Shown here one piece after another: positions 36,553 to 43,518 of a stretch of DNA of 58,912 nucleotides (the stretch's first letter is position 1; each line of letters starts with the position of its first letter). Below the pieces are notes generated by a model, which made no database searches, was not told the DNA's origin, and worked only from the letters and a program-made list of their open reading frames with translations. This stretch comes from Gemmatimonadales bacterium (GTDB taxonomy: Bacteria; Gemmatimonadota; Gemmatimonadetes; Longimicrobiales; Gaopeijiaceae), in the NCBI GenBank assembly GCA_007692665.1, contig REBP01000084.1, positions 1 to 58,912 of the forward strand. The letters run 5' to 3'. The position numbers were made by a program, and so were the translations under genes.

Positions 36553-36859
36553 GAAAGGACCTCTGGATAAGGGTCGGAAAAGTCCACCGAATCTCGGAAG
36601 GCCGGCGGAAGGCGGGGGGAGTCCTTTTTTGCTACCCGGGTCCACCGCACGGGGTCCGGCGCCGGCGACGCCCCCTATTCTCCCGCTGCGCAGGGGGTTG
36701 GATCGGGCCGCGGCACCCGGTATCGTGTTCCCGATTCCCCGTTCGGAATCAACGAATGGCACCACCCGATCGAGACGATCGACCGCCGCTTCCCCCCTTC
36801 CCCTCGAACCCCGGCCTCCCGTGAACCACGAGCCTGCCCCGAAAACGGATCCTCCTGCC
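36553..36859. other. Divergent intergenic region, no clear element
   Basis: About 307 bases between two divergent genes. I see a short A/T run (TTTTTT near 36628) but no convincing promoter, hairpin or small gene. If the aldolase-like gene starts at GTG 36822 instead of ATG 36860, the gap shrinks to about 270 bases. Confidence 0.4.
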
Positions 36860-37984
36860 ATGGACACGGTGGAGACCCCCGCCGCCATCGTGGACCTGGC
36901 CCGGGTCCGTCGAAACCTCGAGGCCACGGTGGCCTACACGCGGGCTCACGGCCTGGGCTGGCGACCCCATGTGAAGACGCACAAGTCGCCGGACCTCGCG
37001 CGGATGCAGATGGACGCCGGAGCTTCCGGACTCACCGTCGCCACACCACGCGAGGCCGAGGTCATGGCCCCGGTCACCCCGGATCTCCTCCTCGCCCACC
37101 CGCCGGTGCCTCCCAAGACCGAGCGCCTGATGCGCCTTCCCCCCGGGGTGAGGCTCACCGTTGCGCTGGACGACGAGGCACTCCTCGCCCCGCTGGCCCG
37201 TGCAGCCGCCGAGGCCGGGCGCACGGTGGGGGTGCTGGTGGAACTGGACGTCGGCATGGGGCGGGTCGGCCTTGCCGGCCCCCCGGAGGTGGTGGCTCTC
37301 GCTCGCCGAATCTCCGCCGCCGGCCCCGACCTGGAGTGGCGGGGCCTGCTCTTCTACCCCGGGCACATCCGGGTCACCGCGGGAGAGCAGGCGCCACTGC
37401 TGGCCGGCGTCGCCTCCCGCCTGGACGCTGTCCTCGAGGCGCTTCAGCGGGCAGGGCTCGCGCCCGCCGTGGTCAGCGGGGGGTCGACCCCGACGCTCTT
37501 CCAGAGCCACCTCATCCCCGGGCTCACCGAAATCCGCCCGGGCACGTCCATCTTCCACGACAGGGACTCGGTGGCCCTGGGCGCGGCCACCCTGGACGAC
37601 GTGGCGTACACGGTCCTCGCCACCGTCGTCAGCACCGCCGTGCCGGGGCACGCGGTCGTCGACGCCGGATCCAAGGCCCTGGCGCGGGAGGAGTTCCGCG
37701 CAGTGCCGGGCCAGGGAGGGTTCGGGATTCTCCTCGATCGCCCGGAGGTGCGGGTGATCAGTGTTTCCGAGGAGCATGGGGTCCTGGACCTTGCCGGCAC
37801 GTCGTGGCGTCCGCGCGTGGGCGACCGCGTCCGCATCGTCCCGAATCACGTGTGCGTCTCGGTGAACCTTCAGGACCGCCTCCTCACCTTCGACCCGGGG
37901 GACGGAGCGACCGGGAAGTCTCTCGGCGAACTCCCGCTTTCCGGACGGGGCCGCCTTGCCGTCCAGGGTCCCGAGGTATGCTGA
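36860..37984 (+). CDS. D-threonine aldolase / D-serine dehydratase-like PLP enzyme
   Basis: 374 residues, cytoplasmic. Alanine-racemase-type N-terminal barrel with the PLP lysine segment RPHVKTHKSPDLA (residues 35-47), VELDVGMGRVG, SGGSTPTL and EIRPGTSIFHD, followed by the C-terminal DSD1-like domain with the metal-binding PNHVCVSVN. These enzymes cleave D-beta-hydroxy amino acids to glycine and an aldehyde or dehydrate D-serine; the substrate cannot be told from the sequence. ATG 36860 begins the conserved TPAAIVDL block; no ribosome site is evident. It runs into ridA on the same strand 116 bases later, which fits, as RidA removes imine/enamine by-products of PLP enzymes. Confidence 0.9.
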   Translation: MDTVETPAAIVDLARVRRNLEATVAYTRAHGLGWRPHVKTHKSPDLARMQMDAGASGLTVATPREAEVMAPVTPDLLLAHPPVPPKTERLMRLPPGVRLTVALDDEALLAPLARAAAEAGRTVGVLVELDVGMGRVGLAGPPEVVALARRISAAGPDLEWRGLLFYPGHIRVTAGEQAPLLAGVASRLDAVLEALQRAGLAPAVVSGGSTPTLFQSHLIPGLTEIRPGTSIFHDRDSVALGAATLDDVAYTVLATVVSTAVPGHAVVDAGSKALAREEFRAVPGQGGFGILLDRPEVRVISVSEEHGVLDLAGTSWRPRVGDRVRIVPNHVCVSVNLQDRLLTFDPGDGATGKSLGELPLSGRGRLAVQGPEVC

Positions 37985-38100
37985 CGCCACCTTTGACCGT
38001 ATCTTTTCCCTGACCCCGGGGCCTGCGGCCGATGCCGCCGGGCCCCACCCGACAGAAGGCAGCGGACGAGACCCGCGCCCGCCACAACCGGAAACCTGCC

Positions 38101-38487
38101 ATGCCCGAACTTCGTGCCGTCGCCACCGACCAGGCCCCTGCAGCCATCGGACCCTACGCCCAGGCCATCGTTTCCGACGGATGGATCTATGCGTCCGGTC
38201 AGATTCCGCTGGATCCCCAGACCATGGAAATGGTGGAGGGAGGCATCACCGGGCAGACGCACCGCGTGCTGAAGAACCTCCGGGCCGTACTGGAGGAAGC
38301 CGGTGGGGGACTCGAAACCGTGGTCAAGACGACGGTCTTCCTGTCGGACATGGGGAACTTCAAGGCCATGAACGACGTGTACGCAGAATACTTCGGCGAC
38401 CACCGTCCGGCCCGCGCTGCCGTCGAGGCCGCGGGGCTCCCCCGCAACGTGGATGTCGAGATCGAAGCCGTGGCTCGCGTCCGCTGA
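38101..38487 (+). CDS. ridA: RidA-family reactive intermediate deaminase
   Basis: 128 residues, the usual size. Recognised by AIGPYAQAI, ASGQIPLDP, the VVKTTVFLSDM strand and the substrate-binding R105 in RPARAAVEAAGLPRNVDVEIEAVA. It hydrolyses 2-aminoacrylate and related imines made by PLP enzymes in the cytoplasm. It follows a PLP enzyme gene, which gives it an obvious job. A small lipoprotein gene follows 30 bases later. Confidence 0.95.
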   Translation: MPELRAVATDQAPAAIGPYAQAIVSDGWIYASGQIPLDPQTMEMVEGGITGQTHRVLKNLRAVLEEAGGGLETVVKTTVFLSDMGNFKAMNDVYAEYFGDHRPARAAVEAAGLPRNVDVEIEAVARVR

Positions 38488-38517
38488 CGCCCTGCCTCAC
38501 CCGGGAGAAGTCGAGCC

Positions 38518-38892
38518 ATGAAGCGCGCGTTCACAGTGGTGGCCGTCGCCCTCGTCGTCGGGGGATGTGCAATCCTGGGCGGCGGGATCACGTCCAGTGA
38601 TCCTTTCCGATCCCAGGCCGAACGCAGGCTTTCGGTTCGGGTCGAGAACGTCAATACCGACGAAATGACCGTGAACGCGCTGGCCCCCGGGCGCCGCCAC
38701 AGCCTTGGCCGGATTCCGGGACGCTCCGTGCAGCAGTTCTCGATCCCGTGGGCATCCACGCAGGACGTCCGCTTCCAGATCGAACCGCTTCGGGGGCGCC
38801 GGCACACCACGCGCGGGGTCTCCGTGGGTCCGGGGGAGTCGGTCCACCTTCTCATCACGCAGCCGGTGGAGCGCTCGGCGGTCTACCGCTGA
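38518..38892 (+). CDS. Small hypothetical lipoprotein
   Basis: 124 residues. N-terminal signal MKRAFTVVAVALVVGG followed by the lipobox Cys at 17. The mature part is short and beta-rich (LSVRVENVNTDEMTVNAL, then HSLGRIPGRSVQQFSIPW, and VGPGESVHLLITQPVERS), reminding of small immunoglobulin-like periplasmic domains. I do not recognise a family. It is 30 bases after ridA on the same strand. Confidence 0.75.
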   Translation: MKRAFTVVAVALVVGGCAILGGGITSSDPFRSQAERRLSVRVENVNTDEMTVNALAPGRRHSLGRIPGRSVQQFSIPWASTQDVRFQIEPLRGRRHTTRGVSVGPGESVHLLITQPVERSAVYR

Positions 38893-38956: not shown

Positions 38957-39802
38957 ATGACCCTCTGGGAAGCCATCCTCCTGGGCGTCGTCCAGGGCGT
39001 CTTCATGTTTGTCCCCGTGAGCTCGACGAGCCACCTGGTCCTCGTCCAGCACTGGCTGCTTTCCCGGGGCTCGCAGATCCCGGCCCCCGAGTCGCCGGAG
39101 ATGATCCTCTTCGACCTCGTGGTGCACGTGGGCACGCTGGTGTCCATGGCCGTCGTGTTCCGGAAAAGCATCGTCGGTCTGGGTGGGCGGGTCTCCCGGG
39201 AACTGCGGGGGAGGCACCCCGGAGACCCCCTGGGCCTCCGGCTCGTCGCGCTGGGCCTCGGTGCCGTGGTGGTCACGGGGCTTGTCGGCTTTCCCCTGAG
39301 GAGCATCTTCTCCGAGGTGTTCGCCCGTCCCGCGGCGATCTCGGTGACCCTGGTCATCACCGGAATCCTCCTCTGGTGGACGGACGTGCTGCCCCCGCGG
39401 AAGCGAGGGCTCCGGGAGATGACGCCGCTGGTTGCCGCCGGCATCGGGCTGGCGCAGGGCCTGGCGCTCCTGCCGGGACTCAGTCGAAGCGGCTCGACCA
39501 TCGCCGCGGCGCTGTTTCTCGGGGTGCGGAGACGGTGGGCGGCCGAATTCTCCTTCTTCATCGCGTTCCCGACCATCCTCGGGGCCACGGCCATCATGGG
39601 CCTCGAGGTCCTGGGCGCCGGGGAGATCCGGGGCATCTCGCCGGCAGCCTATCTCATCGGCGCGGCGACGGCGGCGGTGGTGGGCATCGGTGCCCTCAAG
39701 CTGGTGCTCAAGCTCCTCTACCGGGCGAGGTTCCGCTACTTCTCATGGTACGTGTGGTTCCTGGCCGCCGGCATACTCCTCTTCTCCCTCGGAGGCAACT
39801 GA
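38957..39802 (+). CDS. uppP: UppP/BacA-family undecaprenyl-diphosphatase homologue, catalytic Glu replaced
   Basis: 281 residues with about eight transmembrane helices. The family removes a phosphate from undecaprenyl diphosphate, recycling the carrier for peptidoglycan and O-antigen. Present: VVHVGTL and LLPGLSRSGSTIAAALFLG (the PGxSRSGxT motif), plus the conserved FSFFIAFPTILGA. Odd: the first motif, normally (E/Q)GxTEFLPVSSTGH, reads QGVFMFVPVSSTSHL, so the second glutamate (E21 of E. coli) is Met17 and the Gly before His is Ser. It may be less active, use another residue, or act on a different lipid. Confidence 0.88.
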   Translation: MTLWEAILLGVVQGVFMFVPVSSTSHLVLVQHWLLSRGSQIPAPESPEMILFDLVVHVGTLVSMAVVFRKSIVGLGGRVSRELRGRHPGDPLGLRLVALGLGAVVVTGLVGFPLRSIFSEVFARPAAISVTLVITGILLWWTDVLPPRKRGLREMTPLVAAGIGLAQGLALLPGLSRSGSTIAAALFLGVRRRWAAEFSFFIAFPTILGATAIMGLEVLGAGEIRGISPAAYLIGAATAAVVGIGALKLVLKLLYRARFRYFSWYVWFLAAGILLFSLGGN

Positions 39803-39896: not shown

Positions 39897-42392
39897 TCAC
39901 GCCCCGTAGGGCACCCAGATGTTCTTCACGCGGGTCGCCTGCTCCACGAAGATCTCTCCCTCTCCCCAGGCTGCGCTCCCCCAGTTCCGCGCGAGGGCGT
40001 CCCCGCCTCCCGGGGCGACACCGTCGGTCCAGCAGCGCTTGAGGTTCCCCACCGAGCGGACCTCCACCTCCCGGGCTTCCGCGGCACTCCCGAAGCTCCA
40101 GAGGGCGTCGACGTCGTCGTGATCCGCGAGGACCGGCACCAGCTCCTCCCGCTCCCCGGTGACCACGTTCACCACGCCGCCGGGGAGGTCGGAGGTGTCG
40201 AGGACCTGGTAGAGGTCCGTGGCCGCCAGGGGAAACGACCCCGACGGAAGCACCACCACCGTGTTGCCCAGGGCAATGGCCGGGGCCACCGTCGACACCA
40301 GCCCGAGGAGCGGGTACGCGTCGGCGGCTGCGATCCCGATGACGCCCACCGGCTCGACCATGGCCAGCGTCACGTTCCGCCCCGGGGTGGCGTGCACCCG
40401 GCCGTCCACCTTGTCGGCCAGGGCGGCCCAGGTGAAGAGCCGTTCCACCGAGCGCTCCACCTCCAGTGCCGCCGCCTCCGCCGACAGTCCCGCCCCCTCC
40501 CGGAGCCGCTCCTCGAACTCGCGCCCTCGGGCCGAGAGGTTCTCGGCCACGTAGAAGAGGACCTGGGCGCGGAGGTGTGCGGTTGCCCCGGACCAGCCGG
40601 GGAAGGCCTTCCTCGCGGCCTCCACGGCATTCCGGATGTCCTTCCGGTTCCCCTGGCCGACCACCCCCCGGAGTCCCCGCTCCCCCGGCTCCGAGCCCTC
40701 GCCCGTGGCGGCCACGGCGTCCTCGCCGACGACCAGCAGGCTGCCCCCGCCGTCCGGCCGGGCCTGTTTCCCCCCGATGTAGAGCTTCGGGGTCCGGTCG
40801 AGCCCCCGGGACGCGCTCGGGCCTCCGATCCCCGGCCGGAACTCGACCCGGGTGCGCGGACAGTGCGACGCCGTCGCATCCCCCTCTGCCGGATCATCCT
40901 TCGGACCCCGGGGCCGGAGGTAGGCCACGAGCCCCTCCCGGCCGCCCTCGCGGCCGTACCCGCTCTCCCGCACGCCCCCGAACCCCGACGCGGCGTCGAA
41001 CATGTTGGTGCAGTTGATCCACACCGTGCCGGCCTCGATCTTCGGGGCCACGTCCAGCGCCAGATTCAGGTTCTCGGTCCAGACCGACGCGGCCAGGCCG
41101 TAGCGGGTGTTGTTCGCGAGTTCCACCGACTCGGCGTGGGTGCGGAAGGTCATGAGGACCACCACCGGCCCGAAGATCTCCACCTGGGCCAGCGTGCCCG
41201 CCGGCTCCACGCCGGTGCAGAGGGTGGGCGGGTAGTAGCTCCCGCGGGTGGGCATGCCGTTGTCGGAGGGCTGCCAGATTTCGGCCCCCTCCGCGCGCCC
41301 GGCTTCCACCAGCTCCCGGATCCGCTCGAGCTGGGTCGGGTCCACGACGGCCCCCATGTCGATGCCCTTGTCGAGGGGGTCTCCCAGCCGGAGGGTCTCC
41401 ATGCGGGCCCGGAGCTTCGTCACCAGCGCCTCGGCCACCCCCTCCTGGACCAGGATCCTCGAGCCGGCGCAGCACACCTCGCCCTGGTTGAACCAGATCG
41501 CGTCCACGACCCCCTCCACCACCGAGTCCAGGTCCGCGTCCTCGTAGACGAGGAAGGGGGACTTGCCCCCGAGCTCGAGGGTGAGGGCCTTCCCGGTCCC
41601 GGCGGTCTGCTTCCGGAGGATGCGTCCGACCTCGGTGGAGCCGGTGAAGGCCACCTTCCGGACGCCGGGGTGGCCCGCCAGCGCGGCCCCGGTGCGGCCG
41701 TCGCCGGTGACGATGTTCACGACGCCCTCCGGGACCCCGGCCTCCACGCACAGGTCGGCGAAGAGGAGCGCGGTGAGGGGGGTGAACTCGGCAGGCTTGA
41801 GCACCACCGTGTTCCCGCAGGCCAGCGCCGGCGCCACCTTCCAGGCCAGCATGAGGAGGGGGAAGTTCCACGGGATGATCTGTCCCACCACCCCGTGGGG
41901 CTCCCGGTCCGGAAACTCCCGCTGCACCAGGGCCGCCCACCCGGCATGATGGTAGAAGTGCCGGGCCACGAGCGGGATGTCCAGGTCCCGGCTCTCCCGG
42001 ATCGGCTTCCCGTTGTCCAGCGACTCGAGGACCGCGAAGAGTCTCGCGTGCTTCTGGATCCCCCGGGCCAGGGCATACAGGACCCGCCCTCGGCCGTGGC
42101 CGCCCAGCGCCGTCCACCCTTCCAGCGCCGCCTCCGCCGCCTCCACCGCCCGCCTCACGTCGGCCTCGCTCCCCTGGGCGATCTCCGCGAGCACCTCGCC
42201 GGTGGCGGGGTTCCGGGTTTCGAAGCGCTCGGGGGAATCGGCGCCGGCGGCGGGGGTCGGATCCGCCCACCTCCCCCCGACGAAGAGCCCGAACCGGCGG
42301 TCATGGGCGTCGAGCCAGCGCTCCGCGGGCCCGGTGCTTTCGGGGGCGGGGCCGTACTCCAGCGACTGGAAGATCTCTGCGATGTCGGGCAT
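39897..42392 (-). CDS. ALDH16-type aldehyde dehydrogenase with second, Cys-less ALDH domain
   Basis: 831 residues, nearly twice a normal aldehyde dehydrogenase. The first domain (about 35-500) is complete: GQIIPWNFPLL, KPAEFTPLTA, FTGSTEVGR, general base E273 in LELGGKSP and catalytic C307 in NQGEVCCAG. The second domain (about 545-831) repeats the fold (KLYIGGKQAR, NRKDIRNAVEAARKAFPGW, VEPVGVIGIAAADAYPLLGL) but stops before and lacks the catalytic cysteine, ending at IFVEQATRVKNIWVPYGA. This fused arrangement is that of ALDH16. It oxidises aldehydes with NAD. DeoC, just upstream on the same strand, releases acetaldehyde, a plausible substrate. Confidence 0.92.
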   Translation of the reverse strand: MPDIAEIFQSLEYGPAPESTGPAERWLDAHDRRFGLFVGGRWADPTPAAGADSPERFETRNPATGEVLAEIAQGSEADVRRAVEAAEAALEGWTALGGHGRGRVLYALARGIQKHARLFAVLESLDNGKPIRESRDLDIPLVARHFYHHAGWAALVQREFPDREPHGVVGQIIPWNFPLLMLAWKVAPALACGNTVVLKPAEFTPLTALLFADLCVEAGVPEGVVNIVTGDGRTGAALAGHPGVRKVAFTGSTEVGRILRKQTAGTGKALTLELGGKSPFLVYEDADLDSVVEGVVDAIWFNQGEVCCAGSRILVQEGVAEALVTKLRARMETLRLGDPLDKGIDMGAVVDPTQLERIRELVEAGRAEGAEIWQPSDNGMPTRGSYYPPTLCTGVEPAGTLAQVEIFGPVVVLMTFRTHAESVELANNTRYGLAASVWTENLNLALDVAPKIEAGTVWINCTNMFDAASGFGGVRESGYGREGGREGLVAYLRPRGPKDDPAEGDATASHCPRTRVEFRPGIGGPSASRGLDRTPKLYIGGKQARPDGGGSLLVVGEDAVAATGEGSEPGERGLRGVVGQGNRKDIRNAVEAARKAFPGWSGATAHLRAQVLFYVAENLSARGREFEERLREGAGLSAEAAALEVERSVERLFTWAALADKVDGRVHATPGRNVTLAMVEPVGVIGIAAADAYPLLGLVSTVAPAIALGNTVVVLPSGSFPLAATDLYQVLDTSDLPGGVVNVVTGEREELVPVLADHDDVDALWSFGSAAEAREVEVRSVGNLKRCWTDGVAPGGGDALARNWGSAAWGEGEIFVEQATRVKNIWVPYGA

Positions 42393-42468: not shown

Positions 42469-43518
42469 CTAGGCCATCGGGTGGCGATGCCCGGCCGAGT
42501 ACCGCCCGGTGAGGTGGTGCTCCAGCTGCCGCTCGATGTCGGAAAGAAGCGAGGAGGCGCCGAAACGGAAGCGGTGCGGATCGAGCCACCCGTTCCCCAG
42601 TTCCTCCTTCATCAGCGTCATCCAGACCAGGGCGTCCTTCGCGGTGCGGATCCCGCCGGCGGGCTTGAACCCCACCTCGTGCCCGGTCCGCTCCAGGTAG
42701 CCCCGGATGCTCCGGGCCATGACGAGCCCCACGGGGAGGGTGGCGTTCACCCCCTCCTTTCCGGTGGAGGTCTTGATGAAGTCCGCGCCGGCCATCATGC
42801 ACACCGCGCTGGCGCGGGCGACGTGGGTCAGCGTGGAGAGTTCGCCGGTGGCCAGGATGGTCTTGAGGTGGGCGTCGCCGCACGCCTCCCGGTACCGCCG
42901 CACTTCGTCGTAGAGGGCCACCCAGTCGCCGGTGAGGACGTTGGCCCGGGTGATCACGATGTCGATTTCCTCGGCTCCCGCCTCCACCGAGGCCCGGATC
43001 TCGCCCAGCTTCTGAGGCATGGGCGACAGGCCGTGCGGGAACCCCGTCGACACGGCGGCCACCGGGATCCCGCTCCCCGCCAGCGCCTCCACCGCCGTCT
43101 CCACCCAGTGATGGTAGACACAGACCGCAGCGGTCCGGATCGGGAGCGCGTCCACACCCAGACCCTCCACCAGGTCCCGCCGGAGGGGGGTGCGGGCCTT
43201 CGCTGCCAGCCGCCGCACGTTCGAGGCGGTGTCGTCGCCGGAAAGGGTCGTCAGGTCCATGAGCGTGATGGCGCGAAGGAGCCAGGCCGCCTGCCACTCC
43301 TTCTTGAGGCTCCTGCGGGCGCCGAACTGCCCCGCGCGGCGCTCCACGGCGCTGCGATTCACCTGCATGCGCCGGATCCACTCGAGGTCCAGCGGGATCC
43401 CGGGGTTCCGGTCCCCGCTCGCGGTCCCGGCGGTGGGCCTCGTGTCCTCTCCCCGGGCTCGGGGCGGACGGGGCGGATCGCTGGGCGGGGTTTGGACCGG
43501 GGTGCCGGGGTGCGACAT
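42469..43518 (-). CDS. deoC: Deoxyribose-phosphate aldolase
   Basis: 349 residues, of which the first 45 are a Pro/Arg-rich extension not in usual DeoC. It splits 2-deoxyribose-5-phosphate into glyceraldehyde-3-phosphate and acetaldehyde. The active-site residues are visible: D186 in EEIDIVI, Schiff-base K249 in ADFIKTSTGKEG and K285 in GFKPAGGIRT. It resembles the longer, eukaryote-like DeoC branch (LMDLTTLSGDDT, AVCVYHHWV). The ALDH16 gene lies 76 bases downstream on the same strand, suggesting a deoxynucleoside-breakdown pair that disposes of the acetaldehyde. Confidence 0.94.
   Translation of the reverse strand: MSHPGTPVQTPPSDPPRPPRARGEDTRPTAGTASGDRNPGIPLDLEWIRRMQVNRSAVERRAGQFGARRSLKKEWQAAWLLRAITLMDLTTLSGDDTASNVRRLAAKARTPLRRDLVEGLGVDALPIRTAAVCVYHHWVETAVEALAGSGIPVAAVSTGFPHGLSPMPQKLGEIRASVEAGAEEIDIVITRANVLTGDWVALYDEVRRYREACGDAHLKTILATGELSTLTHVARASAVCMMAGADFIKTSTGKEGVNATLPVGLVMARSIRGYLERTGHEVGFKPAGGIRTAKDALVWMTLMKEELGNGWLDPHRFRFGASSLLSDIERQLEHHLTGRYSAGHRHPMA

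Follow-up and report, generated by a model that had tools for sequence, protein, structure and literature searches.

The gene and its surroundings

The window, by which we mean the whole stretch of DNA analysed here (58,912 nucleotides), carries a gene of the BacA/UppP family (Table 1) whose frame runs without interruption from ATG to stop and encodes the motif MTLWEAILLGVVQGVFMFVPVSSTSHL. In a Pfam search of the 281-aa protein, BacA (PF02673) was the sole family at E up to 0.001 (E 2.6e-63, 214.6 bits against a gathering cut-off of 33.4), and both a PAP2 domain (PF01569) and a DUF368 domain (PF04018) were absent at that threshold. The protein scores 167.7 bits against the NCBIfam equivalog TIGR00753, below the cut-off of 217.5, a model which is non-discriminating here as the genome's own Glu21-bearing copy (184 bits) also falls under it. 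HMMER alignment to E. coli UppP (5OON, 6CB2) pairs Q13 with Glu17, M17 with Glu21, S23 with Ser27, S25 with Gly29, H26 with His30, and R177 with Arg174. This bears out the original prediction that the position of the E. coli residue E21 is occupied by Met17 and that the PGxSRSGxT motif is unchanged (PGLSRSGST). That prediction also drew attention to a Ser in place of the motif Gly; the change is real (S25 for Gly29) but is not distinctive, as Ala occupies this position in relatives with Glu21 (SSSAH, SSAAH).

An AlphaFold model of the window protein (103 sequences, mean pLDDT 94.5) agrees with the fold of E. coli BacA (5OON) along its whole length, with Z 30.5, rmsd 3.1 over 260 residues, 33% identity, and TM 0.77/0.80, and a BacA fold with two re-entrant helices is predicted. 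Judged from its sequence, with Met17 in the (E/Q)xxxE motif, the protein is a member of the BacA/UppP family that falls outside the canonical Glu21 subfamily. We refer to this Met-bearing type as the FMF form, the group motif of which is QGxFMFxPVSST[S/A]H.

Table 1. Features of the FMF-type BacA/UppP gene and of its neighbours in the window; row counts refer to the alignment of 75 FMF and 48 canonical rows.
Feature	Position	Strand	Remark
FMF-type BacA/UppP gene	38957..39802	+	ATG start, 281 aa plus stop
BacA1 re-entrant motif QGVFMFVPVSSTSH (Q13-H26)	38993..39034	+	Aligned to E. coli EGLTEFLPVSSTGH
Met17 codon, replaces E. coli Glu21	39005..39007	+	Glu in all 48 canonical rows
Ser23 codon, E. 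coli Ser27, proposed nucleophile, kept	39023..39025	+	Ser in 75/75 and 48/48
BacA2 motif PGLSRSGST (173-181), Arg177 = E. coli Arg174	39473..39499	+	
Val266 codon, replaces E. coli Arg261	39752..39754	+	Arg261 also lost in related Glu21 copies
Alanine-racemase-N/D-serine-dehydratase-type enzyme; endoribonuclease L-PSP (RidA-type) protein; lipoprotein-like protein	about 36848..38892	+	Upstream of the BacA gene, same strand; the lipoprotein-like protein has 124 aa and no Pfam match
Aldehyde dehydrogenase protein	39897..42392	-	831 aa, two aldehyde dehydrogenase stretches in a single chain
DeoC-family aldolase	42469..43518	-	Adjoins the 831-aa protein

The Met form as a branch of UppP

The window's genome carries three BacA genes. 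One is canonical and lies on another contig (C66, QGATEFLPVSSSGH). The others are of the Met type: the gene in the window, and a copy whose product shares 78% identity with the window protein, on a 4.2-kb contig (C122) that could be contamination given the assembly estimate of 3.97%. The second, canonical UppP that the original prediction proposed looking for is therefore present, and the Met form is an extra pair beside one canonical copy. A survey of 121 genomes of the phylum gave one BacA match in 112, none in five, and more in four, this genome being one of the four. Among 395 genomes scanned in the phylum, a DNA pattern for QG..MF.P.SST.H was matched in 12, all from the window's order and one of them the window's own genome, and the reversed control pattern had 0 matches in the same 395 genomes. 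The motif pattern was also found in 7 of 369 genomes of the class of Thioalkalivibrio (centre genome included).

Scanning the named genome collection turned up 161 relatives; these were ranked by their similarity to a Gemmatimonadota query, and the best 80 were taken for analysis. All of these 80 have G.FMF: 72 match a search pattern that contains FMF, and the other eight, matched solely by a pattern from a different part of the protein, nonetheless have it. A Desulfonatronospira protein among them (L073:1779-2639) has Pro at His30 and is the sole such row of 75. NCBI labels place the best 80 in 12 phyla, with one locus unlabelled (Pseudomonadota, 20; Balneolota, 18; Gemmatimonadota, 13; Bacillota, 7; Cyanobacteriota, 6; and seven further phyla, 1 to 3 loci apiece), with the proviso that most of these loci are MAGs and single phylum labels may be wrong. 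Rows were sorted into FMF and canonical by the motif itself, which makes the Met in 75/75 partly a product of construction; the absence of a third state at position 21, with Glu in 48/48 of the remaining rows, is independent of that labelling. As for the concern, raised with the original prediction, that orthologues might have Glu here, every orthologue found has Met, and Glu is found in canonical copies. What did not survive is the view of the window protein as a single oddity, as the substitution is real but belongs to a conserved subfamily.

When the motif columns are removed, a tree of 82 rows separates the FMF rows from all others at a branch with a support of 100/100, and the same split recurs, likewise without those columns, once same-order canonical copies are added (86 rows). 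A quick tree of 123 rows, also made without the motif columns, gave the FMF branch an SH-aLRT of 100 and a stem of 2.04 changes per column; long branches were flagged in this tree (L049_0, L127, L078), and the grouping is the same in the 82-row tree without them. In the 86-row tree, where one long row was flagged (L219) and the root was placed by hand (L173), the FMF rows group together with 18 canonical rows in which Glu21 is present and Arg261 absent (97/88). With the root among the Arg261-bearing canonical rows, and depending on that placement, Arg261 may have been lost before the change of Glu21 to Met together with that of Thr20 to Phe. The two Met copies of the window's genome group with a Nitriliruptorales (Actinomycetota) row and not with the main Gemmatimonadota set (SH-aLRT 91, 123-row tree), which suggests their horizontal transfer. 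No close FMF relative showed in a plasmid search, in which all 218 records matched at <60% identity and the 25 listed at <=36%.

On the sequences compared, the Met form is a conserved branch of UppP with an ordinary fold and an unusual active site and spread. No UppP without Glu21 was found in the literature searched, as judged on titles and abstract openings, and the main-text passages of a study of UppP phylogeny mention none (PMC5088576). A subfamily without Glu21 is thus apparently undescribed in the literature searched.

Neighbouring genes were clustered with up to seven ORFs on each side for 57 of the 80 named loci, 23 being left out as the target was lost by a simple ORF caller in GC-rich DNA. 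No general partner gene for FMF-BacA emerged among the 57 loci, and the most frequent cluster, judged by eye to be an ABC ATPase, occurs at seven. An ORF of the Na+/H+ antiporter type lies upstream of FMF-BacA in six Balneolaceae loci; the family was tested in only one of these, where the gene is divergent from FMF-BacA (L051:6231-7790), and ORFs resembling it lie upstream in L032, L043, L053, L055, and L062. In a Balneolales soda-lake MAG the canonical (QGITEF) and FMF BacA genes adjoin on the same strand (L049:471-2192). In Guyparkeria hydrothermalis, TamB and Omp85/POTRA (TamA-like) genes are found downstream of FMF-BacA on the opposite strand (L064:10543-16295).

Active-site residues and replacement of the canonical enzyme

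In the published mechanism Glu21 is the proposed general base, with a hydrogen bond to Ser27 and a salt bridge to Arg174, and Glu17 possibly joins it in a carboxyl pair or as a Ca2+ ligand (PMC5852022, PMC5861054). Arg261 is drawn in the E. coli pyrophosphate pocket (PMC5852022). The E. coli E21A variant has 1.4% activity on C55-PP and its complementation is abolished; it is 20-fold more active on C15-PP, and another group is cited at 40% with C15-PP (PMC4641660). Tested from pH 3 to 9, E. coli BacA has a plateau at pH 5-7.5 that its authors tie to Glu21, and the enzyme requires Ca2+ or Mg2+, with 50 µM EDTA inhibiting 95% and Ca2+ stimulating about 9-fold (PMC4641660).

Residues were counted in E. 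coli numbering over 75 FMF rows and 48 canonical rows. Ser26, Ser27, Gln164, Ser173, Arg174, Thr178, Ser196, and Tyr260 are invariant across both sets; of these, Ser27, Ser173, and Arg174 were required by the row filter, which 0 of 201 loci failed. Close to invariant are Ser175 (75/75 FMF, 47/48 canonical), His30 (74/75 and 48/48), and Arg189 (75/75 and 43/48). Nine of these residues (Ser26, Ser27, His30, Gln164, Ser173, Arg174, Ser175, Arg189, and Ser196) are the others, beside Glu21, that were mutated in E. coli (PMC4641660). Most canonical rows (37/48), too, have Gln in place of Glu17. Compared with canonical BacA/UppP (E. coli 5OON, 6CB2; PF02673), therefore, the FMF form shares the whole fold and Ser27, Arg174, Ser173, Thr178, His30, Gln164, and Tyr260, but differs in having Met for Glu21, Phe for Thr20, Val, Leu, or Ile for Arg261, and a longer loop before helix 47-67. 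Conserved in the FMF form and present in <=12% of canonical rows are Phe16, Gln31, His32, Pro42, Pro44, Ser46, Glu48, Trp194, Thr206, and Trp267. Two of these, H32 (73/75 FMF rows) and E48 (71/75), are rare or absent in canonical rows and may be regarded as candidates only for compensating the loss of Glu21.

Arg261 is Val, Leu, or Ile in 75/75 FMF rows and, in the 48 canonical rows, Arg in 42 and Cys in six. Its loss as an FMF-specific partner of the loss of Glu21 was considered and ruled out, since same-order copies with Glu21 lose it as well. Among 20 such canonical copies hand-picked from the phylum survey (L202-L221 and others), Glu21 is kept in 20/20 (L209 included) and Arg261 is absent in 18 of the 19 in which it was read, being mostly Cys, Leu, Pro, or Val. 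The copies of this kind that lack Arg261, of which that on C66 is an example, are the nearest tree group to the FMF form; both are without Arg261 and only the FMF form has lost Glu21.

Of 23 FMF genomes tested, 16 (Guyparkeria WRN-7 among them) have no BacA other than the FMF form, and in the remaining seven it lies beside a canonical copy; 11 of the 23 came from the phylum pattern scan and 12 were chosen from the best 80 of 161 relatives. The order of Thioalkalivibrio, with 47 genomes, divides into 22 with the FMF form only, 22 with the QG.TEF (Glu) form only, and three with no BacA. FMF is the sole full-length BacA in 22/22 of its FMF genomes, one of which (G440) has a further 51-position BacA fragment below the cut-off, and here as above "sole" is judged from drafts and MAGs by one HMM search per genome. 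Internal stop codons are absent from the BacA matches listed for the genomes searched. The FMF form stands in for the canonical enzyme in many hosts.

PAP2 is present in 20/22 FMF genomes, 20/22 Glu-form genomes, and 3/3 BacA-less genomes of this order, and therefore does not track the FMF form. The three genomes with PAP2 and no BacA match are G435, G438, and G439. DUF368 had no match in 47/47 genomes of the order, FMF and Glu-form alike. Four genomes, those of Thioalkalivibrio halophilus (G402), G424, G141, and G222, have FMF-BacA and no other BacA, PAP2, or PAP2_3 match. Peptidoglycan synthesis needs the dephosphorylation of C55-PP, and if this holds for these four hosts, the families searched offer no candidate other than FMF-BacA.

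Proposed catalysis without Glu21 and its possible meaning

The original prediction left two readings, catalysis by another route or another lipid substrate or role. The former fits best, because Ser27, Arg174, and most active-site residues are retained and many hosts have no BacA other than the Met form. From its sequence, grouping, conservation, replacement pattern, and predicted fold we infer the activity, substrate, and pH and metal behaviour of FMF-BacA, and we put at roughly 60% the probability that it is a working C55-PP phosphatase without the Glu21 general base. Ser23 (Ser27 in E. coli) would attack the beta-phosphate held by Arg177 (Arg174) and by the N-termini of the two re-entrant helices, the resulting phosphoserine would then be hydrolysed, and proton transfer would proceed without need of a carboxylate at position 21. 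In hosts whose surroundings are strongly alkaline, hydroxide could serve the pocket, which faces outward, or the Ser could give up its proton more easily. Ca2+/Mg2+, scarce in soda lakes, might also be dispensable to a pocket that has lost the Glu17/Glu21 carboxylates. Against a working phosphatase, the claim demands compensation for the loss of Glu21, since loss of this side chain in E. coli abolishes complementation, Arg261 of the E. coli pocket is lost as well, and the dephosphorylation of C55-PP could fall to the PAP2 proteins found in 20/22 FMF genomes of the Thioalkalivibrio order.

FMF-BacA might instead be an active lipid pyrophosphatase on another substrate, a shorter prenyl diphosphate or other lipid pyrophosphate, with canonical BacA or PAP2 handling C55-PP. 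Such a role would agree with E. coli E21A, which loses C55-PP activity and keeps much C15-PP activity (PMC4641660), with the conserved longer loop (P42, P44, S46, E48) and the residues rare in canonical rows, and with the canonical copy in 7/23 FMF genomes and in the window's genome. It is nonetheless unlikely, in our view, considering the hosts in which the FMF form is the sole BacA (16/23) or the sole full-length one (22/22 in the Thioalkalivibrio order), the four FMF genomes without a PAP2 or PAP2_3 match, and PAP2 being no commoner with the FMF than with the Glu form. PAP2-type C55-PP phosphatases (PgpB, YbjG; PF01569) carry out the same presumed reaction and are a different family, described as not cation-dependent, unlike BacA (PMC4641660).

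The retention of Ser27, Ser173, Arg174, and Thr178 in 75/75 FMF rows makes a non-catalytic C55-P/C55-PP translocase or sensor quite improbable, as such a carrier should not need these residues. The idea draws on the loss of the proposed general base and on the likening of BacA to transport proteins by the authors of 6CB2 (PMC5861054). DUF368/PopT C55-P translocases (PF04018) belong to a different family with C55-P recycling as the common theme; this recycling becomes important under alkaline conditions and, for V. cholerae, in the presence of sodium, and V. cholerae and S. aureus mutants in DUF368 have defects that depend on alkaline pH (PMC9876793). With DUF368 in 0/47 genomes, the Thioalkalivibrio order has no translocase assigned as far as tested, but Glu-form genomes are also without DUF368, so that the lack of DUF368 is not tied to the FMF form. 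The second FMF copy on a 4.2-kb contig and the estimated assembly contamination of 3.97% might raise the suspicion of a binning mistake, an erroneous sequence, or a gene in decay. We consider this highly improbable, given that the frame is open and lies in a contig of 58.9 kb, that isolates and MAGs of many phylum labels share the motif, and that no BacA match listed has an internal stop.

Among the best 80 of 161 relatives, 49 have Kulunda soda-lake codes (CSSed, T1Sed, T3Sed, B1Sed), six have LCM, PLM, DLM, or GEM codes, which we take to be Cariboo soda-lake mats, eight are Thioalkalivibrio, five Guyparkeria or Halothiobacillus, and 12 other, counts that are biased by a ranking which favours relatives of the Gemmatimonadota query. 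Guyparkeria and some of the cyanobacterial hosts are presumably not alkaliphilic, and the alkaline link is therefore not strict; Glu-form genomes of the Thioalkalivibrio order may include alkaliphiles too. The LCM, PLM, and DLM codes were not found in the text of PMC6748926. Overall, the link of the FMF form to soda lakes is suggestive only.

Cock Soda Lake brine has a pH of 9.9 (PMC6704655), and soda lakes are low in Ca and Mg with a pH of up to 11 (PMC6146748). Carbonate brine near pH 10 would be a poor setting for an enzyme that faces outward and relies on a carboxylate and on Ca2+; a carboxylate-free version, with a Ser proton given up more easily at high pH, would suit it. It is possible, and we propose it only tentatively, that FMF-BacA is an environment-tuned UppP of soda-lake bacteria, its active site exposed to the exterior and without a built-in base or metal-binding carboxylate, spread horizontally among haloalkaliphiles of about a dozen phyla and often replacing the canonical form. 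Such an enzyme would work best at alkaline pH and require little or no Ca2+/Mg2+.

As Glu21 is the general base in the mechanisms put forward for UppP (PMC5852022, PMC5861054, PMC4641660), a widespread natural subfamily without it would test that model directly. It would also bear on the unsettled role of the metal and on the dependence on substrate length seen with E21A (C55-PP vs. C15-PP). The annotation "UppP" hides two classes, and the one without Glu21 could indicate how bacteria manage carrier-lipid recycling near pH 10, which in the literature consulted is discussed only for C55-P translocases.
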